Assembly (NCBI GenBank): GCA_914767715.1
Contig: OU612069.1
Span: 13,391,387 to 13,455,386, forward strand
Source of the DNA: Membranipora membranacea
Taxonomy: Eukaryota; Bryozoa; Gymnolaemata; Cheilostomatida; Membraniporidae
DNA length: 64,000 nt
Direction: 5' to 3'
Every line of letters starts with the position of its first letter. The first letter of the stretch is position 1. Positions 1,292 to 48,828 of this stretch are shown here, piece after piece. The position numbers and the translations under genes were made by a program. The notes beneath the pieces were generated by a model. That model saw only the letters and a list, made by a program, of their open reading frames with translations. It was not told the DNA's origin and ran no database searches.

Positions 1292-3481
1292 CTAATCATC
1301 GTTACGCTGGATCCCTAAACGTACATTCCTACCAACAGCTCTTAGATATTCACCGAGCTGCATATCATTTTCCTGGAAACGTTGGCATAAGTTGTTAAGT
1401 CTGTTATGCAGCTGGCGAGTTTGAACAACAGCTTTTTAATCACCTCTCCTTGGCTGTGCAGTCTAATCAGCACCCTCTCCTCCAAGTTTCCACACTGTTG
1501 GGTGGTCTTGTCCAACAAGTGTCTTGACCCTGAAAGTTTTGAGAAAAAAAGCCCTTGAATCTCTTGAAGTGAAAAATTGTTGTCATAACCAATCAATTAA
1601 AGTTAATGTCATATTTTCCAAGATAAAGAAGACCATTGAAGCTGAGGATGAAACATAATTCAATAAACAGTGATGTGAAATTCCAGGATCAGGAGCATGA
1701 AATCTGTGAGAGAACCGATTTATATAGATAATTTACATTATGCCTCTTTGTAGTTTCCATAGCGGTACGGGTGTAAAGTAGGTGTTGTTGTTTTCTGATT
1801 CTTACCTCATATTCCAGGACTCGCAGTTATTGTTTGTTTGGTGTCCGTTTGCTAATGTCACTTCGTACATATTCCAGGTAGCTGGTGGGTATAAAGGGGG
1901 CCTCTGCAATATCATCTGCAAGCCTGCTCCCTGCTGCCCAAGCTGTGCAGCCCATAGCCCAGTGACATAGTTCACATCGAAGTAGTCAACAAGATCCTGA
2001 AATTCTGTAACAAATACGACAATATGATTATCAAAACTCACCAGTTGTGTATTCAAGATACTTACAATGGCCTGAGCATTTTAATTGTCTATTCAAAGGT
2101 TTTGCAATTGCTTGATCATGTGACAGCTCCAAATGTCTACATTGACAATTTATGAACATCAGGTTTTACTCACTAGAAGGCATGTCCTAAGATCAGTTCT
2201 CATATGAATGTGTTTGGTGTAAAATCACTGCAGTTGGCCCTTACCATTTGGAGTGGCATCTCGGATGATTGCCAGCGCAGCATTCATGTTGTCGACTGGA
2301 ACAAAAGCGAGGCCATCCAACATTCCAACAAATGCTCTTATTTCGTCATCATCCCTATATCTCGCTACCAGTCCAAGTTCTTGGATCTTCCTCCATGTTG
2401 ACTAAATTAAGCGATAAAGTACAATCATTTAGCATCACATGGTGATAGTTTATGGGAAATCGAAGCTTGCATCATGACATACTATCATAATCAGATGGAA
2501 TAGGATTTTTAAGTGGCGCAACGCTTTTCTTCTTGCAAAAAAACAAACCAAAGCTGTGAATTGGAATTGTCTCTCTACATTTTAGCCTTAAGTTACCTGT
2601 GTTAGGTGGTAGAAACAAGCTGTAACTTGTGTGTTGGGGAACACCTCCCTAATTCCCTGGTGCATTGCCATCTCAAAGTCACAGTGTACGCGTGCAGGAT
2701 TTAGGTGGTTGCGACCACCATTGACACAATTGTCGACTATTGTCTGTAGAAGCTCTGTGTACGAATCTCTTGCATGATGCATGATGCAGCTTTCACTTAG
2801 TGGAATCCTGATGATGTATAGCTGGAGGAAGTGACGAGGTGCCATACTGAAGTTTCCGTCCACGAACCAGTCTGTGGCTTGGGAGAGTAGCTGCATAAAT
2901 GCAGGAGAACAGGATGTCATAATGCGCTGGTTATTGTTCCCATTATCATTAATTAAGAAAGACTGTTGCTGGTCTCCTATTGTGGTAGTCAGTGCAGGTG
3001 GTATGACCAGATCTTCAGGCTGTAAATTCCCAGGATACTGGTGCTGTCGAACCCTTTCCACCATTCTGGCTACAGCTCCTCTCCCTCCAAGTTCCTACAG
3101 ACAAAAAAACAACGATGTAAATTTGATAAAACAGGTTGAACAGTGTGATCATTTCTATAAAATAACTTGGGAGTTATCTTTTTAATGAGTAGCGATAGGC
3201 AACTTCTACTTATAATGACATTTATGAACAGACGTGTAGCAAAAATATGTCCTGCCACATATGTAAGTCATGCAAATGGAGTGACTTGAGATACAAGTAT
3301 TGTCAGAGATATACTTTCTACTTAAATCCCTACTCCTGTCATTGGGCATATTTGCCATAACATTGGCCCTTATCACAGCTGGAGCATCTTGGGAGTCTTG
3401 AGCTCTCCGTTTAATGTACAGATTTGCCTCCTCAACATTAACTCGAACCTCATTAGGTGGGTGATTATGCTCCGTTGTCAC
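1292..3481 (-). pseudogene. MULE/FLYWCH-type transposase gene remnant, 5' truncated, 3' end decayed
   Basis: Minus-strand exons of a Mutator-like transposase of the kind fused to FLYWCH zinc fingers in animals. Reading from the 5' side: about 3322-3481 ends a FLYWCH-like finger (EHNHPP near its start); 2597-3094 is the MULE catalytic core with FVDGNFSMAPRHFLQLY, then HCDFEMAM, then a CFYHLTQ end; 2245-2401 has WRKIQELGLVARYRDD; 1806-1996 has PLYPPATWNMYE; the last block from about 1528 has HPTVWK and later GEYLRAVGRNV. Borders carry GT-AG signals. Two in-frame stops (TAG, TAA) or compensating frameshifts lie between HPTVWK and GEYLRAV, so the 3' end looks dead. The start of the FLYWCH finger is not seen upstream; the tandem array begins about 145 bp beyond the first exon. 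Such genes may be transposons or domesticated; the broken end favours a relic. Confidence 0.8.
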
Positions 3482-4186: not shown

Positions 4187-7100
4187 CTACCAGATACCAC
4201 CAGCGTATTTATGATGAAATAGAGTCATATGACGCTTATAAGGGTCAACAATAAGATAAGAGAAGCTGTTTATGTGATCTTTATCATCAGGGAAGTATAT
4301 GTCGTCTTCACCACCCTACAAGTACATGAAACATTGTATAATTATCCACTACGAATATGCAACAAAATTTGCCTACTTTTAATGTGAAGCAGTCGGGGGG
4401 GAGGTTAATCAGTAGAGGGAAAGCAACTCCAAAAATATGGGCGTTTTGAAAAATCATAATTCATTGTAAGCCTTAGCCAATTTTTTGGCCCTGATTTACT
4501 GGCTGGAGTGAGTGGTTGGAGAGCCAATGCCAGGTCATATGGTACTTTCAGGAAAGTACCTTGGACATTGGCATTGCCTTACTTTTCATATATGAAAGTA
4601 CCTTTTTGGGCTGGCATCGATTCGTATAATGATTAATATAAAGACCCTGTGCTCACAAGTCCTGCAACGCCATTGGTAGAGCGTATGCTAAGAGATTTGA
4701 GAGTACAATACCACAATTGGTCATCCAAAGCAAGGCAATATCAAGGTCAAAAGTACTTTACTGAAAATACCATGATGACCTGGCTCTGGCTTTCTACCCA
4801 GTCAATCAGAGCCAACACATTGGCTATGTAAACCCATGTTGTAATGGAATAATGAAAGTGAAATTCCGAGTGAATTGCTCAACAAGTTGTTTTCTACAAG
4901 TCCTACTGGTCTGACAACTTTACAATGGGAGGAGTTAAAGTACTGCTGCCACTCAGGCAAATCTGTGCTCATTGAATTCAGTATAGCTAAAATCTAATAG
5001 ATAACTAATTGAGGCTTTAATCTTTAATGGGCAAATAATTTGAACCAACGCAAAAATCAGGGTATGAAATTAACTCACTAGTGATAACATCAAAAGTGCC
5101 TGACGGTAACTACATAGATAATGATCAGGATAATAAATTTCATACCCAGATTTCGACGATGAGTTTGTGCAAACTATTCGCCAATGCTGAGATATTGCAG
5201 ATATTAGTTTTGAGCTATACAGAATTCAATAAGCACGCATTGTGTGGCAGCAATGGTTTAAGCGCAGGTGGCTTGTGTGGGGTAGATACCCTATACCCAG
5301 CATCAGTGGTTTAAGGATGAGACTCCTGCTCTTCTCGTCTGTCTGTTATCTTACCTTGGCCTTTACCTTGTAGACTTGGGATATAACATGTAAGTCTGAG
5401 CTTCCAGGTTCCTTCTGTACACTACAAAATATTAATATTACAAGTAAATAACAAATATAAATAAATATATGTGACTTAGATAAACAACACTACGATATGC
5501 TATGATAACCCCATAATTTGGAATTTAGTTGTAGTTGCTTGTTAGAGGGCAACAAGTTACATTGCAACTACTCTGTTATCTATAAACTTTCCAGGAAACC
5601 TCTTCAAACAAATAAATAATAAAAAATCTAATTAAATATGTATTTGACTAATATTAAGGCCAAGGTCACCGTTCAATTTAGAAAGCAATGGCCCTGCGAT
5701 TTTGGTTATTCAACTTAAAGCTATTATTTTGTATATTTGTTAGATTTTTGAACCAATTGTCACTGTTACATCTTGACAGAGGCCCTGAAAGCGTCACTGG
5801 CTGTTTATCTGTAAGAGTTTCAAGTGTAGCAGTGCCCACATACTTACAAAATGTACATTCTGATCTCGGCTGCATCATTTATAATTTTATACCATATATC
5901 TTACCTTACTAAGTCTTTGTAGAGGTGTTTAGTATGGTTAATATAATCAGTAACATAATCCTCATACTGACATACTCCTCCGCCAACACATAAATGAGTG
6001 AACAGTCTGAGAAGGAATTCATTTCTCTCATCATCAGAATATGTATCATACTTTTCAAACTCTTCATTGAGAAGTACCTGTAATATAAATGTATTATCAG
6101 TGGAATCGAAACACAGAGAGTCATTATCATACCAGCTAGTTGTTTGACTCACAGTTTACCTTCTCAATGTTTACAGCAGGGAGGGTGGGATATGTCTCCC
6201 ACCCTCCCTGTTTACAGGTTTCATTGTTAGAGATGTCGAGAAACCTTGTAGTTGTCTTCTTCCATTACGCGGAAATGGTGTCATGTATTACAGGGAGTTA
6301 TGTTCCACCAGGGAGTGTGGGAGTTCTGTTGCGATCTCCCTGGTTTCACGTTGAAGGTCACAACAATAGAAAGACCGCTCTTGTCTAAGGAATTGTAATG
6401 TGACAGGGCAAGTTGAAGTTGTCATGCCATATTGAACAAAAAAATAGATAGATTCCTGTTCCAAGAAGTATCTCGTCTTACATTCCAGGACAGATTTCAC
6501 AACCTCTCTATTAACTGGGGTGGTTCTGCTCATTATTTTGAATATTAGATTTCAAAAGGGAGATGTCTCACAGATTTACAGGGACATCTTACATATAAAA
6601 TATACACTTTATTACTTGGTTGGCCACAATGAGTTATCAATGCCCTACGAAATACGGCAATAATATAGATAACAGACATGCTCAAATGTGGGCTTTAATA
6701 CATCACAATGTAGTTAAACCACTGCTGTCACACAGCCAAATGTGTGCTTATATAATTCTGTATAGCTCAGAACTAATATGATGAGGCTGCAATCTCAGCA
6801 TTGTCACCTAACGAGCAAATAATTTGCACAAACTGATCGTCAAAATTAGGGTATGAAATTAATTAGGTGAGGTAGTTATCGTCCTACTACTGGAAATTGT
6901 ACATGTCATAAGCTGGTGGTAGATTTCATGCCCTGATTTTGAAGATCAGTTTGTGCAAATTATTTGCCCATTAGGTGACAATTATGAGATTAAAGTCTCG
7001 ATTAATTATCTTGGGGCTATGCAGAATTCAAAGAGCACAAATTTGCATGAGTGGCAGCAGTAGATTAAGGTGCCAAAAAGATTTAGCCTGGATAACTGGT

Positions 7101-9695
7101 ATCAGAATAACCCTTACATTGCGAAGTTCATCTGGTATTGGCACACTATCTATATACTCCTCCAAACATTTCTTGATGTAGCCGTTTTCTTGTACGACCC
7201 CCTCATCCTGCAGCTTGTCAAATAGAGACATGGAGACTGCAGTACAAGCACAACTTTCCACCTCCACAGAGGAAGCTTTGGTACCTAGTAAAATAAAGTC
7301 AATTTTATTAGTGTCAAATTCATAATTCAATCATCAGATTTAAACTATAAATGACTCTGGATGTTTCATCATGATCAAAAATCCACAGTCGTTTTCTCAA
7401 AATTTAACATCGATGGTGGCATGAGAATCCACTCAAACATGTTGTTTGAATTATCAGGAGAAAGGAGAAGAATAATTTTATCCTGATAGATCAGGCACTC
7501 ATTAATAGAAGCTCCTGATAATTCAGACAACATTTTAGGGTGGATTCTGAAGTTACATCTTCATAGATTATTCAATCTTCTTTGTGGATTTAATCAAGTC
7601 ATAATAATAATTATAATATTATAATATGATGAAGAAATTATTATAGGGTATTAAAATTTTGTTCTTTGAAAATTCGCTAAATTATGTAGACCTAAAGTCT
7701 AAGTCGTCATAGCGGAGAGGGTTACCCCTCTAGAGTACAGGTACAGAGACCCATGGTACTCAAGCCACACCCTATACCCTTGCCTGCCGGAATTCCGGCT
7801 ACTCTTTTATTCGAAGGGGCAGAGGGGGATCTTTTTACTGCATGTGCACAGTGGACCTCCGGTATTTTTATTCCCGTTCTGCAAGGACCTGGCTAGGATG
7901 AATGGCGCGCCAGTACCAAATCAGAAATGACTGTCGGCGCCGAGAGTTTAACCTGGACCTCACAGATCACAAGTCCACACCCTTAACCATCAGACCAGTA
8001 CCAGTACTAGACCGTACAGTACCAAGATAAGATCTAAACCACTGCCGCAACACAGGCACATTTGTGCTCATTGCATTCTGTATAGCTCAGAACTAATGAA
8101 ATGAGGCTGCAATCTCAGCCTTTTCTCCTAATGGGCAAATCATTTGCACAAGCTGATCGTCAAAATTAGGGTATGAAATATATCATCTGCTGTAACATGT
8201 GACGTAGTTTCCGTCTTATTAGAGGACAATTATGACGTTATCAGCTAGTGCGCCAGTTTCATAACCTGATTCTGAAGATAAGTTTGTGCAAATTATTTGG
8301 TAAGAATTCTGAGATTTAAGCCTCAATAATTGTCTTGAAGCTATACAGACATCAATGAGCTCGAATTTGTCTGAATGGCAGCAGTAGAAATAGTAGAAAT
8401 AGACTTACCGAGGCCGTAACATGTCGAGCCAGAGGAACTAGTGTGCTGAATTGACTGTACAACCTGGTCATTCTGGAAAAACTCCTGTAGTCAAAAGCAG
8501 TAACAGTAAACACCACAATATTCTAGAAATTTCTAAAAATTCCGAATGAGGGAGCACTTTAGACAGATTTAATGCATTTCAATGCCTTTAAATTCATCAA
8601 ATTACCCATAAGAAGTGAGAAAGAATTCTACTGCTTCCCAAGTTTTGTTGTTGCAAGACCTGCTCCTAGAGGAAAATTATTAATGGAATAATAATAAATA
8701 AGCTCCTAAATCTTTAGCTCCACATGATATGAAACTTACTAGTGCAAATTGCTGGATATTGTATGGCTTGAACTGTTGATCAAAGCTGTATGTCTGTGCT
8801 AGAAGGCGATTTCCCATGCCCCTGAAAAAGTGTCATTATTATTTTACAAAAAAAGAGACTTTATTCAAATCTTGACAGATTTAGGCTAGTGAAAATCACT
8901 CAAAACATAAATCTATCATAACAAATTGGAGTTCAGCAACAGTGCCTGGTGGCGCAGACTTGGAACTCGGATATATTTGTTCCATTATCAATCTCTATTA
9001 TGCCATGAAAGGAAGTGGACAACTGTGAAAACGAGACTTCTGGCCAATGTCTATTTCTCAGCAGCAAAGAATCAGAAAACTGTCTTGTTGATAGTTTCAA
9101 ACAGAAAGAGCGCCTCCCCCTCCCTCACACCACATCATCTGTCATTCCATGTCAAATTCCAATTTCAGCCACGGGAAAAATACAGTTCTGGAATGGAATA
9201 TGAGGAGTTCCGCCAGAGATGGCTAAGAGTGACTATTATAATAATAGTCACTCTCAGCCATCAATTATTATACTGAGGAACTGCCATTGCTTGTAGGAGA
9301 AATACTAGTTTAGTTTTTAGACAGAGTACCAGATTGATCCCCTTTGTTTACGCTGTGATTAATGATGGCACTAGTTCATCCAGCTAATAGGTCGAATTCA
9401 GCACTTCCTGTTGACTCATGGGAGCCTGAGGACTGTAATTTGCCTACCTATGTATGTGGTTGATTCTGAACATACATACATGGCAATTTTGAATTTACAC
9501 ATCCAGTCATGCTTGCCATTTTCTTCCCAGTTGTCTCACAATGGCAAAGCAATTACCTTTAGTCTGTAGTTATGAGTATGTACTTGGGACTCACCATTTC
9601 TGAAGGCCTTCCTTGAAGTCTTTTAACTGAAGGGAAGGAAAAGTTTTTGAGGCAAGGAGCTGAAAGGAAAATTTTTGAAACTGTTCACCCGCCAT
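4187..9695 (-). CDS. CFAP300: CFAP300 (C11orf70), unit 1, seven coding exons, intact
   Basis: Exons 5' to 3' on the minus strand: 9595-9695, 8740-8821, 8409-8484, 7118-7284, 5905-6077, 5355-5421, 4187-4315. They join in frame to 264 residues, against about 267 in human. All introns are GT-AG. Recognisable blocks: start MAGEQFQKFSFQ; GTKASSVEVE and LSMSLF-like SMSLFDKLQDEG; IPDELRN joined to VLLNEEFEKYD; the strongest block HLCVGGGVCQYEDYV then HLYKDLV; last exon with FSYLIVDPYKRH and end GGIW. CFAP300 is a cytoplasmic/axonemal protein needed for outer and inner dynein arm assembly in motile cilia; human loss causes primary ciliary dyskinesia. The start shares a 226 bp divergent gap with METTL13. 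Introns carry three related MITEs and a SINE-like repeat. Family assignment is from remembered human sequence. Confidence 0.93.
4939..5257. mobile_element. TTAA-flanked MITE, family A, in CFAP300 intron 6 (unit 1)
   Basis: Flanked by TTAA at 4935-4938 and 5258-5261. Ends are inverted: left begins AGTACTGCTGCCACTC, right reads GTGTGGCAGCAATGGT. The arms stay complementary for over 100 bases, including a GGGCAAATAATTTG block and the opposed GGTATGAAATT / TTTCATACCC near the centre. No coding capacity. TTAA target duplication is typical of piggyBac-type non-autonomous elements. Confidence 0.75.
6177..6210. repeat. Perfect 14-bp-arm hairpin, G-rich stem, CFAP300 intron 5 (unit 1)
   Basis: Arms CAGGGAGGGTGGGA and TCCCACCCTCCCTG around a 6-base loop TATGTC. 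The same hairpin is unchanged at 30179-30212 and 53679-53712. One arm has closely spaced G runs. It could be a structural element or a small relic of an insertion. Confidence 0.8.
6718..7064. mobile_element. TTAA-flanked MITE, family A, in CFAP300 intron 4 (unit 1)
   Basis: TTAA at 6714-6717 and 7065-7068. Left end ACCACTGCTGTCACAC and right end GTGGCAGCAGTAGA are inverted copies; arms of about 140 bases contain GCAAATAATTTGCAC and its counterpart GTGCAAATTATTTGC. Same family as the elements at 4939 and 8036. Its right end is only about 50 bp from the exon 4 donor. Confidence 0.8.
7690..8015 (-). mobile_element. tRNA-derived SINE-like repeat, antisense, CFAP300 intron 3 (unit 1)
   Basis: Read on the minus strand, the segment starting near 8010 has an A-box-like TGATGGTTAAGGGTGTGG and about 35 bases later a degraded B-box-like GGTTAAACTC, as expected for a tRNA-derived SINE head, followed by a body of about 250 bp rich in pyrimidines and ending in AT-rich DNA. 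Nearly identical copies lie at 31690-32025 and 55205-55545. Assignment rests on box-like motifs only. Confidence 0.5.
8036..8388. mobile_element. MITE, family A, in CFAP300 intron 3 (unit 1)
   Basis: Left end ACCACTGCCGCAACAC, right end ATGGCAGCAGTAGA, arms inverted across GGGCAAATCATTTGCACAAG / CTTGTGCAAATTATTTGG-like sequence. The flanking TTAA has decayed (TAAA on the left). It lies next to the exon 3 donor at 8408. It is more diverged in its flanks than its two sisters, so it may be the oldest of the three. Confidence 0.7.
9218..9262. repeat. 45-bp snap-back palindrome, CFAP300 intron 1 (unit 1)
   Basis: GATGGCT(A)AGAGTGACTATTAT is followed at once by its reverse complement with a single offset base. 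Identical at 33604-33648 and 56746-56790. It may be the relic of a small inverted-repeat element. Confidence 0.75.
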
Positions 9696-9921: not shown

Positions 9922-12900
9922 ATGGCATTACTTCCTTAAGAACATGGCCAGTCTGCAAAAGAAGATTTCTGGGATGGTTTCTTCAAGGCCAGAGGTGACA
10001 AGTCATTTGACTGGTGAGTGTTACTGTTACTCTGACTGAAGTTATCATTTTACATCATCCTTAAAATAGATGACGCAGAAACCTACCATAGCCTCATTGT
10101 AATGGTAGTAAAAGTTTATTGAACAAACTACAGAAGAACACAAAAGCCTCCATTTGCAGCCTTTTATATATTTGGAGATCCAATACAATACTTATATAAT
10201 ATATAGGCTATTATAATACTCATGAAAAAAGTTTGTCATTGTAGTTTAGTTAATATAGAAGGACTTCAACGCGTTTCCGTTTCTTCAGAACGTTGTGTTT
10301 GTGAGCCCCAGCAACAGTGTAAAAATGTACTAATCACAGACCTTGGGACTTTAAACACCCATCTAACTAACTAGAGACATAAGCGTTCCACCGGTAGCTT
10401 CCCTCTGGCTCTCTGCCTGTTTTAACACCTCATATTAGGAATCAATTCCTCAGTCACATAGTCACAGAGTCCTTCTCTTTATGTGCAATACTGTCTCTGA
10501 AACGCAACACTGCTGCATTCTGGAAACTGTTGCTAAGATTAGTTGCCCGCGCCTGTTTAGGCTTAGCTACAGACAACGTTCTACAGACACATTCTACAGC
10601 AAGTATTTTTATCCTCATATTCATGTTATTGATTGATTGATCCTTAAAAGATTGATGAATTGTACGCTTGAGTTCAGTGTCAACTGATCATCAAACCTGC
10701 AAGTTTCTTGTCAACTTAAATTTCCTCTCTACTTACAGGTATGGCGAGTACGGGGAACTATCTTCTGTTATACACAAATACATCAAACCTGCCGATAAGA
10801 TACTGATGGTTGGATGCGGTAATAGTAAACTTAGCGAGGATCTATATGACTTGTCCTATCACGATATACACAATATAGATATCAGTGAACTTGTCATCCG
10901 ACAAATGAATCAAAAGAACAACGATAAGAGGCCGAAAATGAGCTATACCAAGATGGACGCCACGCAGGTGATCGTCTATTTTTCACTTCATCTTCTTCTC
11001 CAATTTGCAGGCCTCACTGCATTTGCATTGGCTAACAATCAGGTATCAACCACTGTACTAGCCTTATCTCAAAGGCCAAAAACAAAAAATGGGCTAACAC
11101 CAACTCTTTGGTGCGCCAATGTATGCTGTTTTTAGAAGCGGTAAATCTATGCACTGCCACTTCATAAATAGTCTGAATTAAAGGCCCAGGACTTCTCTAA
11201 TCCTAGTCTGATAATGGACCTCAACTTTGATAAGCTCCTTGGAAGCCATGCCTGCTGCCAGGTGAACATTCAGCTCATTATTATGTGTGCTTTTTACAGA
11301 GAGTACGGAATTTCAAAAACAACTATAGCATTCATATGGCACCATTTTATGCTTGCCGAATGTGAGAGTAGAGTATGCACTTGTGATTGGAAGAACGAGA
11401 CAAAAGTTGGTCACATTGTTAAGAGATATCGTAATTATGTTGGTTGGCTATCATTGAAGGATGGGAAAGATTAGAGTGAGGGGAGTGGACTTGCTACTTG
11501 TGCATACTATGTTGGCATTGTACCTGGCAAAACTTAATCAATAAATTAATCTGGATTCTCCGCACAGATGTCATATGAGAATGAAAGCTTTAAATCGGCC
11601 ATAGATAAAGGTACTCTGGATGCTTTACTACCTGACACAGAGCACATTGAGATAGCAGTGTCTATGTTAGCTGATGTGTGGAGAGTAGTAAAGTGTATGG
11701 GATCGTATATGATTGTGAGTCTAGCCCAGGATCATGTACTCAATACTCTAGTCAAGTCATTCCAAGACAGGTAAGCAAACAGTTGTATCAGGCTACAACA
11801 TTCAAATGCCATGGTCTAGATGGCACATATCACAACAAAAAATATTCTGCCTGCTGGATAGCTTTATGACAATGGTGGCGCTGACTTCCATCAAGGAAGA
11901 CAACTCTAAGAGTTCAAGGATGTGAGATAGCAAAGCCAACATTCCATTTAGGTCCAAATATATCCAAATCACCGGTTTCTCATTATTTCTCCAATTTAGG
12001 TTCTCAGTCTATGTGAATTAGTTCAAGCCCTACGCTGCAGAGACAAGTGCGAAGTGCAAGAATCCTGCGGTGGTGTTTGACATTTTTGTTGTTTGAGATT
12101 CCTTTTTGAATTGTTTTGAAAGAACGCGTAAATTAGATTTGAAGCCGTGCATTTTTTTACCTATTCTTCTAGCTGAATATATTTAAAGTGTCAAGTTATT
12201 CAAATTTGACATCAGATGATTGAACCGTCAGAAATGGTTTGTAGTGGGAGCCCACTATCAGCTAACTAAACAAGGCACTTTCTCCATAGATGCATTTGTA
12301 TTTAAAGCTGCGCGTCTTCAATGTTCACAAATAACAATAAATGTCAATCTGGTCCAAATCATTGCGGGCAATCACTTGTCTACGGCCACACTTCGGCAAT
12401 TTATAACTGATAGCAATAACCTTCGAATATGCAATCTAACAAAAATGTCTTTTTACATCCTCCTACGCCTTCCTCTATCCTCTAATTTTGTTTTTCTTAC
12501 AGGGCCTGTATATTTAGAGCACATAAACTACCGTCCAGCTCAGAGGAAGGGTTTATGATGCCCGTGTTCGCCTTTGTTATCACAAAACTCAAACAGATAC
12601 CAGGCATGAAAACTGTAAGTTGACCGTGACCACAAAAAATGTCTTTAACTTGGTGTTTCAATAGAATCATAGTACGCTTTTCATATTTGTGGGAAATTAC
12701 CCTTCAGGCAATGAACTATAATCCTTACTGTGCATAAACAGACGCAGTGCCACATAACCTCTCACACTTACAAATACCTAACAGGCCTATTTATCAGTGA
12801 TCCAGTAAAGAGAATTTGACACCCCCAAATGTAAAGTTGTCTCAACCTTGAACAAGGTGGGATAACACCTAATCTGTCATGAAAATATGGTTTTATTAGC

Positions 12901-19189: not shown

Positions 19190-19613
19190 ACATTCTGGTT
19201 AAATTCCATGAGGTTTTTTGGTGTTTTTCCTCAGCTAGTAGCATGTTTCCTTTATACTTTTAATAACTGAGCAATAGTAGATTCAGGACAGCTATCTTTT
19301 GGCAACCAAACTAGACACATCTGTAAAACTCCTCCAGTCAGCAACCAAATAAAAGCTCATAGTACACAAGATAACCAACTGAAGTAAGTTTCTTGAGCTC
19401 TGCCTGCCGGCAGACCTCCCTGCCTTGAAATAATGTTGCCTTGTTTGTACTCTGTTGTTGGACTGTAGCCTCCTTTGGGTAGTAGGTAGAGGCTAAGTGA
19501 AAACCCCCATTGCACCACTGCATCCATTGACCCGATTGCCAGTCCAGTTCCTTCCAGCTATCTCGCAAAGGTAGTTCAAACCCTGAGCCATTCCCTCCAA
19601 CTCATTAATCTTG

Positions 19614-19763
19614 CCCGATAAATATGTTAATAATTTGTCCATATCCCTTCCCTCCCCAATTTATCTAGCCCGATAAATATGTTAACGGTTTGTCCATATC
19701 CCTTCCCTCCCCAATTTATCTTGCAAGATATATAAGTTAATAGTTTGTCCATATCCCCCCCCC
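19614..19763. repeat. Minisatellite, three units of about 58 bp
   Basis: Each unit has GATAAATATGTTAA (third diverged), then TTTGTCCATATCCC and a CCCTCCCC tract. The same three-unit array is in unit 2 at about 43178-43325. Confidence 0.85.
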
Positions 19764-20669
19764 CAAAAGCCTTGAATTTTCCAGCATGTTAAGCAGTCAT
19801 CATAGAAATAAATCAAGAGAGTCTGATCCCAAGGAAAGAACTACAGAGAGAAAATTAATTTATTTTATTTTGCAAATCTTGAATAAAGGGTAAAGGGTAA
19901 ATAATGGTGTGAGAGTGAAGTTCTCAGGAATTCCAGTCGAAATAAAATGTGGCTAAATATTGAAAAGAAAAAAGATTTTGGTTGCATCTCAAAATACTCT
20001 CCAGTTTGAAAGGATCATAGGTAAAATGATTGCAACAAGGAGCAGAAAGCATGCATAATTGTTTTTATTTTATGGCGCCATCGAATAGAAAATATACTTC
20101 AAATACACGAATATAATATTAAAACATTATACTATAGATAGAAAAACTCACTTGGTTAAAGTCAATTATTTAAAGCAAATCTAATAACTAAGAAAGTAAG
20201 AAATTACTCGCTGTTGGGTTACCTGGTCGTTTGATTCACAATCATAATTGGCAGGAAGTGAAAATATAATGTGCCCTCTGCTGGCTGTTCTAGCAGTTTT
20301 TGGTAGCAACTTCTTTGGAGAGTCGTACATCAATCCTCCAATTGGATGATAACTGTATTTTTGAATAAAGAGTAATTTCGGATTAAAGACAAGCAATGAA
20401 TGTAGAATCATGTTTGCAGGTATAATTGCAACAATAATTTAGGTGAAGGTGATCAGCAAAAATACATTAGCAATATAAAGAATATTTATTATATAATAGG
20501 CTAGACTTGCATTACGGCCGAATTTATTAATGAGTGACAGACAATATACTAAATTTCGCATAACCAGAATGGGATCTTTGAGCTCAGCGTTTGATTTTTT
20601 CAAAGTAAGGCGGTATAGCTGCATATTATATTATTATATGTTTTGAACTTCAAACCTTGATGTTCAGCA

Positions 20670-23600
20670 TTAGATGACTTTGAAGAGTGACACAGTTTTG
20701 GCGTCCCAACCAGCCACAGCTAGTATGTTGCCATATATACTTATATCTTCGTGCTCTTCTGGAAGCCTCTCGCTATTCAACTCGCAGAGTTTCTTTCCTG
20801 AATTAATTTATAGAGAGTCAATATTGATGCTAAGTCAAAAGAATTAATAGTTCTGCCTATTGAATCTTATGCATGGTTTATATAATAAAGTAATAACAAT
20901 ATGTTAATATTATGAACTTTATTTGCTATTCAAAGCCCCTTTCGGGCAAATGAGTATATGCTTACATTTTGTGGAACAAGATTTATCACATCTTTTTAGC
21001 ACACCCTTGTACAATGTAACGGTAGGCAAGCTAGTGTAATGTAAGAAGAGGTCACCTCCATTAGCAACACCGGATTTTAAGCATGCGACTCTCAGATTGA
21101 GAAGCTCGAATCCTAACCACTAACCTAACTAATAACACATTATCACAAGCACCTAAAGTGATTGTGATAACTCAATCAAATAATTATTGGAGCTTATTGG
21201 AGGAGTTTCTAATCTATTGAACATGAGAGTATAGCTCTAATCAACAAATTAAATATTTGAAAAAAATATTAATTTCAGATTTCAAAATTCATAGAGGCTT
21301 GTTTATCAATTCTTTATCACATCCTGAACTTCCAAACTAGCAGACATTATACACTTACCATCAGGCCTTACCACATATATCCTCTTGGCATCGACCTCAC
21401 TCACAAAAATCAGCTTCTCATTATCAGACACAGCGATACCACACGCTCGGGTAAGAGGACATGACCAGATCGGAGTGAGGACTACACCATCAGTTTCCTT
21501 TGTCGAGATCCTGTACTTGTTGAGGAAGTTTCCCTTGTTACCTACTCCAGTAGCGAGTAAGGAGCCGTCTTGTAGGAAGTAGATGCTACGGTTGAACTGT
21601 GTGAGACCAGGAAGTGGAAGTGTCTGCACATTCTTCTCTCTCCTATCATAGAGCTTCAGTGTCTTAGTGTCTCTATCTACACAGGCTACAAACTCATCAG
21701 ATACAGTCATGTGTGACGCCATCTTTGACTCCATTGGGAAAGAGAAAAGCATTTCACATTCCTTGCTTTCAACGTCGTAGGCAAAGATTTGTATAATTTT
21801 ACTATCTTGATCCTGAGAAATGAAGACTTCTCCCTTGTGAACAGCAGTTATAGCTTCTCTATGCTGAGTTTCCTCTTTCACTTCATAACTTCCTCTAGTG
21901 ATAATCTTCATTCCAGCAGAACATCCCAGCAGCAGGTCACCAGTGAGGCTGTTAAAGCAGACTGAATAACATCTTTCACCTGTCTCATACTGAGATACAA
22001 GCTTTAATCCAGATGGGACTTCAGGAATGCTGGATGTGTCATCTTTATGAATTTGACTTTTGGGCCAACCTGTGAACAGAAATTTTGATTCTTCAAGTGC
22101 GCTTTTAAGTCATAAATGAACTTTTATTTTGTTTGTTATCGTTAAATCACCAGAACTTACCACCGATACTAGATGTAATACATGTGATAAAAATAGAAAC
22201 AATTTTTCAGCGATAAATGAGCTTTGCATTGCAACACACACTATTTGATCATTCTATAGAGGAAAACTCACATATCTCGTTAATGAGAGTTATCTTCTCA
22301 ACAGCAGACATGGAGGAATCCATAGTCTCAGCTGTCTTCATGTCTGCTCTCCATTTATCAATGTCTCCCTGTTTCCTCTCTATAGTGTCAGTCAGGTCGA
22401 GTTCCATTACACGAAGCTGCAGTCATAGAACTAATGTAGATCAAATGCATAAAGATTGTTCTTATATTTTCTAATACAAAGTCAGATATGCGATAGGATC
22501 ATTGAAAGCATGAATGTTGCGGTGATGTGGCTTGTTTGTTTAGGAAATTCATACCTTTTACCCTGAGAATACATCCATACATTTTTAGGCATAGAGATAG
22601 TGTATCTTACCAGGGTCATTGACCAGTTCTTCCATGTTTTCAGTTTATCCTCAGCTTTTTCCAGCACTATATCCAGTGAATCAGGCTGGTGCCTTGCATC
22701 TCCCCAGCTACATGTTGTCTTTATAATACAACTGTCATTAGAAGAAAATAGTTATGCTGAAACTGGCCCCATGTTGTGCCAATTGTGCAATTAAAACACA
22801 GAAACAATTTCTTGCAGTAATTCTTTTAGGAATAGTAAAAATCTTAACATATCTGCTGGTTTGTTTGGGAAACTCCCTTGTTTGTGAGGCACCATAATTC
22901 TTCATTATTGGGACATCTCCGGAGCAGTCACATACCTTTTTACTTTAAAAAACATTCTACCCTACTGATTGTTGATAAACTTTGTGTTAATGTGTCGAGT
23001 TTGCTCCCTACTCATCATATGTAACTTTTTCCATCCATCCACCGATTGATTAATTGTTTTGGTATTCATCATTTGACGGACATAACTGCATCAAAATCCC
23101 CACCATTTAACAGATATGGCAAGCTTATAATATTATAAGTCAATACGGCTCCCTGCACACCATGCTGTCTTCAATTTCTTCAGAGATAATAGAGCAATCT
23201 ACAATTTTAAAACTCGACTCTTCAAAATTAATTCTTCAAAACAACTGGACCTGACATAAACCTGCTATACCTAAATGCCTGTGATAACTGAGCCAGCAAG
23301 TTTTATAGTTAATGAAAAGTCGTCATTTTTGTCTAGACAAACAATGCACCTGATGGGGCTCAAATCCAGGATCCTGTTATCTAAAATCAGTAACACTGAT
23401 GGGTTTTGGTTTTTTGTTGTGTGGAGTTGTCTGTCAAAACCAACTAACAAACTTGAAATTGAATAGATAACTCTAAGTTGTTGGACTGAATCCAGTCTAC
23501 TTGAAATGGGGAAACCTTCTATTGGAGCCCCGTCAATGTATTTTGGGCTTGTTCAGACACAAAAGAGAGAACGAGAGGTGATGGCTTCAAACAAAACCAT

Positions 23601-25241
23601 GATTTCTCGACAAGAGAATAATATGCTGCTCACCCGTAACAGAAGTACTTTTCACACTTATTACAAACTGCTTGGACTTCATTCTTACAGTTGCTGCATC
23701 TTTGACCTGCAATGATGACACGAAGATATCTCTAATCAATTTGAATACACATGTGATTCAATCCAATTTGGCTTACAAGGCAAGCCCGTTTTATTGCGCA
23801 AAAAAACAAAGTCAATTTAATGTGTTTTTTTGGTCTCATTGAGTACTCTTGATGTGAATTTAGGAAACAGCCTTGCTACTGCTTAAGTCTCAGAAAAAAA
23901 GCGATGTCCAACATACAGTATTGTGAATCAGCTGGTACAACCCAAGAGAATTTGTGGACCGTGGAGGCGCCCTCACATATTGGTAGGACTCGCAGCCTAG
24001 CCAACGTGTGGGCTTTGGACAGATGTTAACTTATTCATAGCTAAAGTAGCCCGATAATAAATAGCTCAAGCCTCTGAGTAATCCACAGCACAGGCGAGCT
24101 TCAGCCAGGTATCATGGAAAACCCGTGATATGAAAAATGACTGTATCTAGATCACCAAGTCGATAATTCTATCGCCAATATCAGATAAAAAGTGTAGGAC
24201 AATATTTACAAATATTAAACTTACTCTCCTTCACCTGGAGAATTTTTTCTTGTTTTGATGGAGTGATTGGTCTCCGAATCTTTCGAAATGTGAACCACTG
24301 ATTGGCAGGGAATCCCTCATCAGAAGTTTTACATGTTGTACGGCAGAAAGGACATTCTAAAGATTCTCCGCCATTGACTAAAGAATCTGTAAACGCATCA
24401 TTTTTTAATCAGAATGATTGGTCTATTAGTAATCTTTGGGAGTTGTGGGTACAAAACAGCCTTAATCAATTTCACAACTCATGGTAGCTCGTTCACAAGA
24501 GCTGACCAGCGTTATCCTCACCCCTACTGAACAAAGCTTGTCAAGACAGGCTAGGCTGGTGCATGGAAATCATTTCTTATAAATGAACAATCTTCCTCTC
24601 ACATATTTTGACAACTTTATTTTGTTTATTTGGTTGTCTTGATGAGCACCTCTCCTGCCCCAAATCATTAATAGAGGCCAATGATAGGCTAGTACCAGCC
24701 GTAAAGTGCTAGCATCAGAAATAGATCTGGCACATATTTATAATGGGTGAGAACAAGCTAAGGTCTCGTATGGTGGGCTCACCTCTATTAACAGCTTGAG
24801 TAGTGACCGTAAATCAATGCAATCTATGATTGGGAAGTGTTAATTCCAACCACTACTTTAGCGTTTCGGAATAGCCTAATCACGGCAGCCCAATACAGCC
24901 AAAACGAAAGAAGAACTTCGGAGATAAAGCTCCCCCTACATAGTAACATATAACAGTAACAGTAACAGTCCTTATAATGTTGATGGCTCAGTCCTTCAAA
25001 CTAGTGGAAAAGGCTGAATGTTAATTGTTGTGGTCAGCTTGAAGGTTCATATTAGTGGAGTGCGCCAGCTGATTACTTGAAACATTGAAAATATATGAAG
25101 GTTCTCACCTATACACACTATACAGAGTCCATGTCCACAGGGTAGAATATGAGACTTTCTATCATCTTCCATACAAATCTCACATTTTGTCTCTGGGATG
25201 TACTCTTTAGCAAGTGCCATCTTCAACTCCGACTCAGCCAT
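20670..25241 (-). CDS. TRIM-like RING/B-box/coiled-coil/beta-propeller protein, unit 1
   Basis: Exons 5' to 3': 25109-25241, 24225-24386, 23634-23706, 22611-22707, 22272-22416, 21359-22069, 20670-20797. They join in frame to 482 residues with GT-AG introns. RING C3HC4: C20, C23, C35, H37, C40, C43, C56, C59. A B-box-like zinc motif follows (C102, C105, C113, C116, C121, possibly H129). Residues about 130-203 are charged and helical, a likely coiled coil. From about 225 to the end lies a beta-propeller with NHL-like repeats, for example GIAVSDNEKLIFVSE then RIYVVRPDGK. This is the TRIM E3 ubiquitin ligase plan with an NHL-type substrate-binding end. A non-coding 5' exon may be 25584-25618, followed by a donor and joined at 25243. 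The propeller differs strongly from the unit 2 copy at a few loops (see findings). No named orthologue is claimed. Confidence 0.9.
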
Positions 25242-25243
25242 TG

Positions 25244-28124
25244 CTGGAGCAATAAAGTGAATGAGAGACTCACTTACTTACTTACTTACTTATTTCGGCA
25301 GTTTCACTTCATACAAAGATAGCCTTTCTTAACATATCTGTGATTGTCTTGTCTTGGCAAGCTGGTCATGGCTAGCTAGCAAACCTAGTGCGCCCATGTG
25401 AAATGAGCAGGTTTTGAATGCACAAATAGCTTGAAAACAAATTGCCATACAGACAACAACCCGATATGTAAGCTCTACACTCAAACCTTTCCATCTGCAT
25501 CTGACCTTCCACATGCTCAGCCAGAACGTGTTATGCACTCTATATACCAATAGAAATTTCAATACGCTTTATAGTACACTTACCTTGATTGGTTGAAATG
25601 AAAGCAGGTGTGTTGATCCTAGAGAAGGAATGAGTGTTCAGTTTAGTATTATACAGCTTTATACAGTCTTGTCCATATGACTGCAATATTCGTACTGAGT
25701 ATGTCATATAAAGCAACTTGTTTGATAAAACCATTACTAACATGAAGATAAAAATTCATAACGTAATAAAATAAGAGATAAGAGAGTGTGTAGGCAAGGT
25801 TAACGGCTCTAGTTTATTTACACAAGATGGGAGATAAGGATACTGCACTTGAGAAACATCACATGATGAAGTGGTGATCGTGTCTAAGGGTGTAGGACTG
25901 CTCACCAGCCAATGCTGTTCAAAAGCCTATTATCTGTCATGAGCAGATAACCATGACAAACCTAGCAACTACACAAAGACCAATGCAGGTCATTGTCAGG
26001 CAGTTATTTGTGATAACGTGATGTAGGCAATCATATATCGAAAGAACACATTTTCAATATTTGGCTAATAATCTAGCACGTAATTAATAATACACATGGA
26101 ACACTATCTTTTGTATATTCATGAGTATGACAAAGCTGGGCTACAGAAGCACTCACTTTTAGGCCTGTGCATTTTATATTACTTACAGTTTTTTCAAGGG
26201 TTAAATTTGCAATATGCTATTAAGTATATTTCCTTGTTGAAACATTTATGGTAACTGACTGAATAAATTGGGTTTGTTTATTTACCTATAATTGATATGT
26301 TTATTATGGTAATATACACATATATATATATATATATATTATATACATGTAAGTATGTAAATATACAGAGTGTTTTACACCTAGAAAACTCAAGGCAAGG
26401 CTCAGTTACTTAATAAGACAGTACTGTGTTATAATTTTGTGAAACTTACTAACTCTTACCTGGCCTTTGAGCCTCATATTTTGTAGTTATCTTATCTTAC
26501 CTCTAGCATTATCTAGTACCATGGCGTGTAGCCACTGTGCATTAGCTGTGTTGGATGTTATCGGGGGGGGGGGGGGGGGGGCGATAACATCCAACACAGC
26601 TAATGCACAGTAGCTACATGGCGTGCCTTATAGCGAGTTATGCTAATTTACTTATCTCGCCAGTGTGCGGGTTTTTCTCCTATTATTCTAAATAACCGAA
26701 GAGACAAGTCATCTTTTCACAATCCCCACCCTCCCGCCTTCAAGTACTACCTTATGCTACTATATTTCTCAGTGTGTGAAGAGTGACTTCGGTGCATGTG
26801 TGGTTGGTGCTAAATGTTCCGCCTTTTCTAAAGTATATAGGCCGAATTTCCTCCTATAAAGTTGTTGCCCTGCACATGCTGTTCTCCAGCAACTTACTGT
26901 ACTTACTTAAACGTTTTAGTTCTATAACTATTTGGGGGTTAATCAGGAAATGGCGTATCGGCCCCTATAGATATCTTGTTAATCATTGAGGTAAGAAAAA
27001 ACAAATATTTATATATAATTCTAAACTATTGCTAGCCATCTTTGCTCAATGTCAGAAAAGTTATCCTGAATCCTATGATTAACTTTCGTATTCTTCTATT
27101 TCTTATTAAATTACCGGTAGGACCGTTCCTCCTTGACTATAACATTCAGTATTTGTATATTGTATTTAAGCTGTAAGAATTAGAAGCCCAATATGTTTAG
27201 GTAGCACATTTCCATAAGCTTCATCATAGTCCATTACTAGACTCACACTTTTTGCCAGGGTTGCGAACTATATTTTCAACTGTTTATAAATGGAAGCTAA
27301 GAGTTATACCGCATGTACAATGGAAGGCAACTCCCATCAGCTCAAACAATATTTGATTGAGTTGCATGGATCATTTTCAGTACCTGTGATATTGCATATT
27401 ATTGCAAACCATGCATTAGAATTAATAATTTCTACAGCCATTATGGTTCTTTCATATGAGCTTGTCGCTATCTTATTGCTCCGCAAATTTTGCAATCAAG
27501 ATTTAAAGTCATAATCATAGATTTGTATCACAAATAAGCTAAGTGACTAGACTAGCCTTGGCTGGGAGTGGGAGGCTAAAACTGAGTCCCTACAAAATCA
27601 TCTAAGCTTTGACTTCAAGGTTGAAAAATTCACCACATACGGTTCGGAAGATCTTCTTTTCTTTTCAACCTTAACAGAAAATCGTTGCAAGTATACTGAC
27701 TGAGTGAGTTTATTATATCTATGACTGTATTTAAACATATCACATACCACATTCGAGTCAGTTTACATGATTGATGACAAAATAAAATATCACCTCATAT
27801 GGTAAACATCAGTGCATGTTTTCTGTTCTTGGTCGACCTCCTTGCTTCTATTTGGCCAAAAATGAAGAGCATTATTGGACACAAACAACCAAAATCTTTT
27901 TGAAGGTGGGGGGGGGGAGGTTAGACCATTCCATTACGTGCTTCCGATGACTACTACCACATTGACATCTATTTTATACCCCAGGGTATTCAAGTCTCAA
28001 TCAGTATATGTATGACCGTATGACAGGGCTTTTCAGTCAACACATTACAATTTGTCTTTCACAAAATTACCCAATAAACTGAAGCTTATCTAATCTAACT
28101 ATGGAGTCAGATAAATTTGGAGAG
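25244..28124. other. Non-coding interval upstream of the TRIM-like gene, across the unit 1/2 junction
   Basis: It contains a possible 5' UTR exon (25584-25618), a CTTA microsatellite near 25272-25292, an AT microsatellite near 26318-26340, the snap-back element at 26529-26616, the unit junction at about 27562, and G-runs near 27907 and 28333. Open frames around 26783 and 27290 resemble nothing I know and have no splice or start support. Confidence 0.6.
26529..26616. mobile_element. Snap-back element with poly-G centre and 9-bp target duplication (unit 1)
   Basis: CATGGCGTG at 26520-26528 is repeated at 26617-26625. Left arm starts TAGCCACTGTGCATTAGC, right arm is its complement with one mismatch near the end, ending GTAGCTA. 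The arms are about 34 bases and the loop is a run of 19 G. The TAG..CTA ends and 8-9 bp duplication resemble the element at 19068, so both may be hAT-type MITEs. Unit 2 has the same element with 15 G. Confidence 0.85.
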
Positions 28125-44270: not shown

Positions 44271-47200
44271 TTAGATGATTTTGAAGAGTGACACAGTTTT
44301 GGCGTCCCAACCAGCCACAGCTAGTATGTTGCCATATATACTTATATCTACGTAGGTTTCTGGAAGCCTCTCGCTATTCAACTCACAGAGTTTCTTTCCT
44401 GAATTAATTTATATAGAGTCAATGTTGATGCTAAGTCAAAAGAATTAATAGTTCTGCCTATTGAATCTTATATAATAAAGTAATAATATGTTAATATTAT
44501 GAACTTTATTTGCTATTCAAAGCCCCTTTCGGGCAAATGAGAATATGGTTACATTTTGTGGAACAAGATTTATCACATCTTTTTAGCACACCCTTGTACA
44601 ATGTAACGGTAGGCAGGCTAGTGTAATGTAAGAAGAGGTCACCTCCATTAGCAACACCGGATTTTAAGCATGCGACTCTCAGATTGAGAAGCTCGAATCC
44701 TAACCACTAACCTAACTAATAACACATTATCACAAGCACCTAAAGTGATTGTGATAACTCAATCAAATAATTATTGGAGCTTATTGGAGGAGTTTCTAAT
44801 CTATTGAACATGAGAGTATAGCTCTAAGCACCAAATTAAATATTTGAAAAAAATATTAATTTCAGATTTCAAAATTCATAGAGGCTTGTTTATCAATTCT
44901 TTATCACATCCTGAACTTCCAAACTAGCAGACATTACACACTTACCATCAGGCCTTACCACATATATCCTGTTAGCCTTGAACTCACTCACAAAAATCAG
45001 CTTTTCATTATCAGACACAGCGATACCACAAGCAGCAGGGAGAGGACATGACCAGATTAGAGTGATGACTTCACCATCAGTTTCCTTTGTTGAGATCCTG
45101 TACTTGTTGAGAAAGAACCTTCCGTTCTCTACTCCAGTAGCGAGTAAGGATCCGTCTTGTAGAAAGTAGATGTTAATGATGATCTGCGTGAGACCAGGAA
45201 GTGGAAGTGTCTGCACATTCTTCTCTCTCCTATCATAGAGCTTCAGTGTCTTAGTGTCTCTATCTACACAGGTGACAAACTCATCAGATACAGTCATGTG
45301 TGACGCCATCTTTGACTCCATTGGGAAAGAGAAAAGCATTTCACATTCCTTGCTTTCAACGTCGTAGGCAAAGATTTGTATAATTTTACTATCTTGATCC
45401 TGAGAAATGAAGACTTCTCCCTTGTGAACAGCAGTTATAGCTTCTCTATGCTGAGTTTCCTCTTTCACTTCATAACTTCCTCTAGTGATAATCTTCATTC
45501 CAGCAGAACATCCCAGCAGCAGGTCACCAGTGAGGCTGTTAAAGCAGACTGAATAACATCTTTCACCTGTCTCATACTGAGATACAAGCTTTAATCCAGA
45601 TGGGACTTCAGGAATGCTGGATGTGTCATCTTTATGAATTTGACTTTTGGGCCAACCTGTGAACAGAAATTTTGATTCTTCAAGTGCGCTTTTAAGTCAT
45701 AAATGAACTTTTATTTTGTTTGTTATCGTTAAATCACCAGAACTTACCACCGATACTAGATGTAATACATGTGATAAAAATAGAAACAATTTTTCAGCGA
45801 TAAATGAGCTTTGCATTGCAACACACACTATTTGATCATTCTATAGAGGAAAACTCACATATCTCGTTAATGAGAGTTATCTTCTCAACAGCAGACATGG
45901 AGGAATCCATAGTCTCAGCTGTCTTCATGTCCGCTCTCCATTTATCAATGTCTCCCTGTTTCCTCTCTATAGTGTCAGTCAGGTCGAGTTCCATTACACG
46001 AAGCTGCAGTCATAGAACTAATGTAGATCAAATGCATAAAGATTGTTCTTATATTTTCTAATACAAAGTCAGATATGCGATAGGATCATTGAAAGCATGA
46101 ATGTTGCGGTGATGTGGCTTGTTTGTTTAGGAAATTCATACCTTTTACCCTGAGAATACATCCATACATTTTTAGGCATAGAGATAGTGTATCTTACCAG
46201 GGTCATTGACCAGTTCTTCCATGTTTTCAGTTTATCCTCAGCTTTTTCCAGCACTATATCCAGTGAATCAGGCTGGTGCCTTGCATCTCCCCAGCTACAT
46301 GTTGTCTTTATAATACAACTGTCATTAGAAGAAAATAGTTATGCTGAAACTGGCCCCATGTTGTGCCAATTGTGCAATTAAAACACAGAAACAATTTCTT
46401 GCAGTAATTCTTTTAGGAATAGTAAAAATCTTAACATATCTGCTGGTTTGTTTGGGAAACTCCCTTGTTTGTGAGGCACCATAATTCTTCATTATTGGGA
46501 CATCTCCGGAGCAGTCACATACCTTTTTACTTTTAGAAACATTCTACCCTACTGATTGTTGATAAACTTTGTGTTAATGTGTCGAGTTTGCTCCCTACTC
46601 ATCATATGTAACTTTTTCCATCCATCCACCGATTGATTAACTGTTTTGGTATTCATCATTTGACGGACATAACTGCATCAAAATCCCCACCATTTAACAG
46701 ATATGGCAAGCTTATAATATTATAAGTCAATAGGGCTCCCTGCACACCATGCTGTCTTCAATTTCTTCAGAGATAATAGAGCAATCTACAATTTTAAAAC
46801 TCGACTCTTCAAAATTAATTCTTCAAAACAACTGGACCTGACATAAACCTGCTATACCTAAATGCCTGTGATAACTGAGCCAGCAAGTTTTATAGATAAT
46901 GAAAAGTCGTCATTTTTGTCTAGACAAACAATGCACCTGATGGGGCTCAAATCCAGGATCCTGTTATCTAAAATCAGTAACACTGATGGGTTTTGGTTTT
47001 TTGTTGTGTGGAGTTGTCTGTCAAAACCAACTAACAAACTTGAAATTGAATAGATAACTCTAAGTTGTTGGACTGAATCCAGTCTACTTGAAATGGGGAA
47101 ACCTTCTATTGGAGCCCCGTCAATGTATTTTGGGCTTGTTCAGACACAAAAGAGAGAACGAGAGGTGATGGCTTCAAACAAAACCATGATTTCTCGACAA

Positions 47201-48828
47201 GAGAATAATATGCTGCTCACCCGTAACAGAAGTACTTTTCACACTTATTACAAACTGCTTGGACTTCATTCTTACAGTTGCTGCATCTTTGACCTGCAAT
47301 GATGACACGAAGATATCTCTAATCAATTTGAATACACATGTGATTCAATCCAATTTGGCTTACAAGGCAAGCCCGTTTTATTGCGCAAAAAAACAAAGTC
47401 AATTTAATGTGTTTTTTTGGTCTCATTGAGTACTCTTGATGTGAATTTAGGAAACAGCCTTGCTACTGCTTAAGTCTCAGAAAAAAAGCGATGTCCAACA
47501 TACAGTATTGTGAATCAGCTGGTACAACCCAAGAGAATTTGTGGACCGTGGAGGCGCCCTCACATATTGGTAGGACTCGCAGCCTAGCCAACGTGTGGGC
47601 TTTGGACAGATGTTAACTTATTCATAGCTAAAGTAGCCCGATAATAAATAGCTCAAGCCTCTGAGTAATCCACAGCACAGGCGAGCTTCAGCCAGGTATC
47701 ATGGAAAACCCGTGATATGAAAAATGACTGTATCTAGATCACCAAGTCGATAATTCTATCGCCAATATCAGATAAAAAGTGTAGGACAATATTTACAAAT
47801 ATTAAACTTACTCTCCTTCACCTGGAGAATTTTTTCTTGTTTTGATGGAGTGATTGGTCTCCGAATCTTTCGAAATGTGAACCACTGATTGGCAGGGAAT
47901 CCCTCATCAGAAGTTTTACATGTTGTACGGCAGAAAGGACATTCTAAAGATTCTCCGCCATTGACTAAAGAATCTGTAAACGCATCATTTTTTAATCAGA
48001 ATGATTGGTCTATTAGTAATCTTTGGGAGTTGTGGGTACAAAACAGCCTTAATCAATTTCACAACTCATGGTAGCTCGTTCACAAGAGCTGACCAGCGTT
48101 ATCCTCACCCCTACTGAACAAAGCTTGTCAAGACAGGCTAGGCTGGTGCATGGAAATCATTTCTTATAAATGAACAATCTTCCTCTCACATATTTTGACA
48201 ACTTTATTTTGTTTATTTGGTTGTCTTGATGAGCACCTCTCCTGCCCCAAATCATTAATAGAGGCCAATGATAGGCTAGTACCAGCCGTAAAGTGCTAGC
48301 ATCAGAAATAGATCTGGCACATATTTATAATGGGTGAGAACAAGCTAAGGTCTCGTATGGTGGGCTCACCTCTATTAACAGCTTGAGTAGTGACCGTAAA
48401 TCAATGCAATCTATGATTGGGAAGTGTTAATTCCAACCACTACTTTAGCGTTTCGGAATAGCCTAATCACGGCAGCCCAATACAGCCAAAACGAAAGAAG
48501 AACTTCGGAGATAAAGCTCCCCCTACATAGTAACATATAACAGTAACAGTAACAGTCCTTATAATGTTGATGGCTCAGTCCTTCAAACTAGTGGAAAAGG
48601 CTGAATGTTAATTGTTGTGGTCAGCTTGAAGGTTCATATTAGTGGAGTGCGCCAGCTGATTACTTGAAACATTGAAAATATATGAAGGTTCTCACCTATA
48701 CACATTATACAGAGTCCATGTCCACAGGGTAGAATATGAGACTTTCTATCATCTTCCATACAAATCTCACATTTTGTCTCTGGGATGTACTCTTTAGCAA
48801 GTGCCATCTTCAACTCCGACTCAGCCAT
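44271..48828 (-). CDS. TRIM-like RING/B-box/coiled-coil/beta-propeller protein, unit 2
   Basis: Exons 5' to 3': 48696-48828, 47812-47973, 47221-47293, 46198-46294, 45859-46003, 44946-45656, 44271-44398; same lengths as unit 1, 482 residues. RING, B-box-like motif, coiled coil and most of the propeller are nearly the same as in unit 1 (one RING-region change, CIVC to CIMC). The last part of exon 6 is different: hand alignment of 44948-45195 with 21361-21608 gives about 36 base changes in 249, with 16 amino-acid changes between residues 362 and 432, and three more at 455-457 in exon 7. The changes sit in short patches while the blade framework is kept. Function as an E3 ubiquitin ligase is inferred from the domain order. 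Confidence 0.9.

Follow-up and report, generated by a model that had tools for sequence, protein, structure and literature searches.

Tandem RING-propeller ligase-like genes with one probably diversified propeller face in the bryozoan Membranipora membranacea

Proteins that join a RING finger to a propeller are found in the TRIM-NHL group (TRIM71/LIN-41, Brat, TRIM2/3, and TRIM56), whose members are mostly conserved single-copy regulators. In LIN-41, the upper propeller surface is described as the ligand site and carries a basic pocket (PMC5908797). Propellers that vary between members of one family are described in fungi. HET-D and HET-E (HNWD) of Podospora anserina are allorecognition NLRs with WD40 propellers and exchange among members (PMC1805685; PMC12222747). 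Their codons under positive selection lie on the top face, in the d-a and b-c loops (PMC1805685). In fish, the finTRIMs and other TRIM expansions consist of duplicated RING/B-box genes in which positive selection acts on the C-terminal recognition domain (PMC2657112; PMC3137616). Propeller faces are already known as diversified platforms in fungal NLRs, and selection on TRIM recognition domains is known in fish for B30.2. A limited search of the CC-licensed PMC literature by titles and abstract openings returned no RING-propeller family with a diversified face among the matches listed.

Two of the genes described here lie in a 64,000-nucleotide stretch of the Membranipora membranacea genome (the window; C5:13391387-13455386, contig OU612069.1), which contains near-identical repeat units of ~23.6 kb and holds the gene twice, as M4 and M5. 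The gene model proposed in the initial annotation, with seven exons, GT-AG splice sites, and 482 residues, was reproduced, as were the residue changes it had listed between the two copies; three further changes (residues 42, 332, and 481) lie outside that list. In M4, read like M5 from the minus strand, exon 1 (25109..25241) contains the start codon and the first part of the RING finger, and exon 2 (24225..24386) contains the remainder, as placed by a splice-checked model and Pfam (PF13920, E 1.4e-8, above cut-off). The gene model continues with a cysteine-rich stretch in exon 3 (23634..23706), which is B-box-like by eye only, a linker or coil region in exon 4 (22611..22707), and a coil region in exon 5 (22272..22416), the latter two also assigned by eye. 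Exon 6 (21359..22069), supported by propeller matches as well, encodes propeller blades 1-5, and exon 7 (20670..20797) encodes the end of blade 5, blade 6, and the stop codon. The corresponding exons 1 to 7 in the gene model of M5 are 48696..48828, 47812..47973, 47221..47293, 46198..46294, 45859..46003, 44946..45656 (propeller blades 1-5), and 44271..44398. Two further ORFs of the repeat unit, one with a methyltransferase domain and one CFAP300-like (10659-11132, 7031-7330, and repeats), occur three times each in the window, and an ORF with a MULE transposase domain lies just outside the first repeat unit (2591-3094, minus strand).

The protein is best read from its sequence as RING ubiquitin-ligase-like, with a RING finger, a cysteine-rich stretch, a coil region, and a six-bladed propeller of NHL/WD40 type. 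The RING finger of the final 482-residue M4 model exceeds the Pfam cut-offs for both PF13920 (34.8 bits against 27) and PF00097 (31.9 bits against 21), its closest solved structure is the RING of TRIM56, and ubiquitin ligase activity would be expected from this domain only. The propeller matches the NHL domain of TRIM71 both by sequence search (E 2.6e-4, blades 5-6) and by profile (3e-6), with blade 5 aligning best with the TRIM71 NHL repeats. With the profile, built on an alignment of the family members M4, M1, M2, M6, and M7 (M3 and M5 being omitted), WD40 propellers score best and TRIM71 NHL next. Neither a B-box (M4 only) nor an NHL domain gives a Pfam match up to E 1 in the final M4 model, neither NACHT nor B30.2/SPRY matches the final 482-residue protein, and NCBIfam gives nothing above cut-off. 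A weak B-box match (PF00643, 17.3 bits, below the cut-off of 24.1) was withdrawn, because the draft behind it had a surplus cysteine where exons 3 and 4 join. The initial description of the genes as TRIM-like is thus valid for the RING finger only, and membership in the TRIM-NHL group is not claimed. Like the finTRIMs, the family consists of multiplied RING bodies with a selected recognition domain, but in the finTRIMs that domain is B30.2 in fish proteins with a B-box, whereas here it is a propeller in a protein with no B-box match.

The initial annotation had suggested that the two copies belong to a larger family, and a search of the assembly (339,339,785 bases in 18 contigs) agrees with this. 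At the DNA level, exon 6 matches at seven places. A stretch of ~114 kb on C5 accounts for five of them (M1-M5), C7 contributes another (M6), and the seventh is a short match on C5 at 9.14 Mb. Six open propeller exons were found, namely those of the C5 array, M1-M5, and that of M6, a family size that is a lower bound given the DNA-level search. All seven exons have matches in M1-M6, with some exon 2 and exon 4 borders in M1, M2, and M6 unlike those of M4. M3 has a 2-base insertion relative to M4 in RING exon 2, near C5:13382180, which shifts the frame while the propeller exons remain open; M3 may therefore be a pseudogene or have altered splicing. The short match is a distant relative (M7; C5:9143700-9145830) with exons 6 and 7, a propeller exon 39% identical to that of M4, and no counterpart of the RING exons over the surrounding 10 kb; it was left out of all codon tests. 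Next to M1 there is also an orphan copy of exon 7 (C5:13321442, minus strand), whose loop sequence is different again and which is possibly the remnant of a member or a conversion donor.

Between 21361-21608 in M4 and 44948-45195 in M5, copy-to-copy alignment gives 36 substitutions and no indels, exactly the count estimated in the initial annotation. They span 21384..21600 (minus strand), within blades 4-5, and introduce no stop codon, whereas the adjoining 4 kb (21612-25612) contain only 9 substitutions, in line with the estimate of a few per kb. When the two repeat copies are aligned over 13.7 kb, 100-base bins with at least 15 differences occur at 21378 (15), 21478 (15), and 27978 (21). The last of these was rejected as a second hot spot, since its consecutive mismatches adjoin an indel and are probably misaligned. 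The near-identity reported around the tract stands for the 5′ side of the gene, which differs by ~0.2% (21.7-27 kb), but not for the 3′ side, where the copies diverge by 2.7% over the flank (19600-20669) and by 1.5% over intron 6, with a raised value for exon 7 as well. The same loops vary in other family members too, beyond the M4/M5 pair.

The blades within one protein differ strongly from one another, judged from their sequences and the blade layout. The six blades were laid out by sequence pattern, with an N-terminal strand closing blade 6, in a map drawn after the variable sites had been seen and thus not blind. The D-A and B-C loops were taken as the top loops and the A-B and C-D loops as the bottom loops; for HET-E, the d-a and b-c loops are stated to lie on top of such propellers (PMC1805685). 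On this pattern-based map, the residues that vary among M1-M5 number 38 of 71 in the top loops, 5 of 33 in the bottom loops, 17 of 155 in the strands, and 3 of 19 in the N-terminal part, and positions with at least three residues number 18, 1, 2, and 0, respectively. All 12 top loops have at least one variable residue, as do 4 of the 11 bottom loops. The initial proposal that the patches cluster on one face is borne out, as none of 258 circular shifts of the map reaches the observed counts (the highest give 35 and 15 against 38 and 18). The result is also robust to boundary moves: when every boundary was moved randomly by up to one residue in 1000 trials, the top loops remained at least 42% variable and the rest at most 16%. 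Between M4 and M5, 15 of the 21 amino-acid changes in exons 6-7 fall in top loops, and of the patches listed in the initial annotation, that at residues 399-403 sits in a strand by the pattern layout. Structure prediction gave low confidence (pLDDT 39 from one sequence and 45 from two). In the latter model, 85 of the 102 exon 6 strand residues fall in strands of the pattern map, and 7 of the 18 exon 6 hypervariable residues fall at predicted strands, compared with 43% of all residues, so this prediction neither proves nor sharpens the loop map. The best 50 of 1215 Foldseek matches to the same model are mostly propellers (kelch, lactonase, and TRIM71 NHL), which are not used as proof because their TM-scores are below 0.4.

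Taken over whole exons, the propeller does not have the dN/dS above 1 that had been named as a check for selection. Pairwise values over exons 6-7 among M1-M5 are 0.39-0.74, and for all top loops taken together the value is 0.79 (0.50-1.34) against 0.27 for the remainder, so that selection shows per site only. With a single tree, the site models give 2dlnL of 45.3 for M1a/M2a and 50.1 for M7/M8, and all 8 codons with a posterior above 0.9 lie in top loops. With three partitions, each with its own tree, 2dlnL for M1a/M2a is 46.2 for six sequences, 26.3 for M1-M5, and 37.0 without M3, with a selected class of 7-10% of codons at w 5.4-6.0. In these three runs, respectively, the codons with a posterior above 0.9 are again all in top loops (10/10, 6/6, and 11/11 under M2a; 11/11, 6/6, and 13/13 under M8), as are 17 of 18, 15 of 16, and 20 of 23 of those above 0.5 under M2a, the others lying outside. 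The six-sequence M8 run supports residues 236, 254, 320, 336, 339, 364, 384, 411, 429, 456, and 457 above 0.9, and these occupy 9 of the 12 face loops. The posteriors are naive empirical Bayes values with branch lengths fixed, up to scale, from a one-ratio fit, and the exact numbers are therefore approximate. Once multi-nucleotide changes are allowed, 2dlnL is still 34.45 (p 3e-8), and the top loops contain 15 of the 16 codons above 0.5. For the standard test, a parametric bootstrap with M1a as the null and fixed trees yields no replicate among 60 that reaches the observed value (maximum 6.8). In three sister pairs, nonsynonymous divergence of the top loops is 5.6x, 23x, and 31x the intron divergence, with baselines from introns 1-6 for M4-M5, 2-6 for M1-M2, and 3-6 for M3-M4. 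Adding the omitted introns 1 and 2, cleaned of 50-column windows with at least 20% divergence or fewer than 25 aligned bases, hardly alters M1-M2 but changes the M3-M4 baseline from 16/1867 to 37/3016 and its ratio from 23 to ~16. By these codon models, support for dN/dS above 1 is strongest at codons of the hypervariable D-A and B-C loops. Variants have been shuffled among members in short tracts.

Synonymous sites are raised as well. Among M1-M5, dS over exons 6-7 is 0.10-0.19, compared with a divergence of 0.012-0.028 in intron 6, which serves as the low-divergence reference (1.2-2.8%; in M4 at 20798..21358, minus strand). The excess at fourfold sites over intron 6 reaches nominal significance in each of the 10 pairs (p <=0.014 in nine and 0.025 in the tenth); with the top loops removed, it does so in 6 of 10. 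Intron 6 of M6 is ~40% different and poorly alignable; the intron therefore looks unconstrained, and the introns of the array look homogenised. The contrast recalls MHC class I and II, in which the recognition exon is older and more diverse than the homogenised introns, although that protein is unrelated and its diversity is allelic, whereas here it is paralogous. Over pooled pairs, fourfold-site divergence is 0.133 within 3 codons of hypervariable codons and 0.025 beyond 10, a gradient that is weak at the codon level (p 0.06 and 0.044; 25/277 shifts). Between M4 and M5, synonymous sites in the loops differ by 23% and introns by 0.4%, and point mutation with selection alone since the split of the two copies was rejected on these values. 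As synonymous divergence is raised near the loops, imported old variants contribute to the divergence alongside new mutation and selection, and the divergence of the M4/M5 tract is in part imported old variation and in part selected change.

Conversion among array members, one of the two routes initially suggested, has left recognizable traces. The PHI test gives p 0.0005 for M1-M5 and 0.0085 for six sequences, and the longest identical run is significant (p <0.05) in 3 of 10 pairs, namely M4-M5, M2-M5, and M1-M3. Codons 206-326 of M4 (21702..22064, minus strand) are the same as those of M5 at 52 successive variable sites. In codons 365-406 (45049..45174, minus strand), M5 and M2 share a run of 26 successive variable sites that differs in M4, which marks a conversion tract (run permutation p 0.0002). 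At the 45 differences between M4 and M5, the base of M5 is shared with some other member at 33 (37% expected), that of M4 at 31, and both at 20. The propellers of M1 and M2 are closer to that of M4 despite N-terminal halves (exons 2, 3, and 5) closer to M6 on the other chromosome; of the 144 bases of exon 5, 13 (M1) and 12 (M2) are unlike those of M6, against 44 and 43 for the comparison with M4. The N-terminal halves of M3 and M5 resemble that of M4. Since the N-terminal and propeller relationships conflict, gene bodies and propeller faces must have been recombined. Within member groups, the likeness of gene bodies and introns argues firmly for recent duplication and conversion.

Taken together, these observations are best explained as tandem genes for RING-propeller ligase-like proteins in which one face has been diversified for recognition by selection and conversion, a reading to which a probability of roughly 0.7 is given. 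It could be argued instead that the loops are under relaxed constraint, so that they tolerate change and conversion imports old variants of the array with no selection for diversity. An exon-wide dN/dS below 1, a top-loop value whose interval includes 1, and the raised synonymous sites all fit such an account, yet the bottom loops vary little, the site models reject w<=1 even with multi-nucleotide changes allowed, and neutral conversion alone would need to spare the loops while homogenising intron 6, which lies between the two propeller exons. Relaxed constraint is therefore considered unlikely. A mutational mechanism, whether local hypermutation or conversion from an exon-only template such as cDNA, would raise both types of change in the propeller exon and leave selection a minor role. 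The peak of synonymous divergence beside the hypervariable codons, weak as it is at the codon level, and the gap between loop synonymous sites and introns in M4 and M5 would follow from it. However, there is no reason to expect such a mechanism to single out the same loops in each of six blades or to favor nonsynonymous change at codons under selection, and the tract of M5 that resembles M2 speaks for templated transfer, making a mainly mutational origin decidedly improbable.

Lastly, near-identical repeats of ~23.6 kb are hard to assemble, and haplotype switching or collapse among them could have produced chimeric copies. The same pattern nevertheless appears in five array copies and in a sixth on another chromosome, and the 36 changes of the M4/M5 tract contain no indel or stop codon. 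Misassembly could shift variants among copies, but could not confine them to one set of loops, and an assembly artefact is accordingly the most improbable of the explanations weighed here.

If selection and conversion have indeed diversified the face, the hypervariable face would bind a target that differs among members or keeps changing, new face variants would be supplied by conversion and mutation and kept by selection, and the RING end would attach ubiquitin to whatever is bound there. The net charge of the top loops is between -2 and +2, unlike the basic RNA pocket of LIN-41 (PMC5908797), and this composition would weakly favor protein targets. TRIM-NHL proteins likewise combine a RING finger with a propeller, but Pfam gives no NHL or B-box match here. 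The likeliest use of the face would be the recognition of non-self or otherwise fast-changing proteins.

The closest likeness in working is to HET-D/HET-E, which share a propeller sensor, the same two selected loops (here on a pattern-based map), and exchange among members (PMC1805685; PMC12222747). The fungal proteins differ in having NACHT where the bryozoan protein has a RING finger. They also differ in that near-identical WD40 repeats are swapped as units, whereas here exchange takes place between the same blades of different genes. A narrower and more doubtful possibility is that the array is an animal germline repertoire for non-self (allo- or pathogen-) recognition, in which a ubiquitin-ligase propeller sensor with a hypervariable face, independent of HET-D/HET-E on the same two loops per blade, is refreshed by short-tract conversion while its introns and ligase module are homogenised. 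A RING-propeller family with variation in all 12 face loops and strongly supported selected codons in 9 of them would represent an independent origin of a HET-D/HET-E-like design, with ligase action as the likely output, and its six natural face variants could be used in ligand screens.
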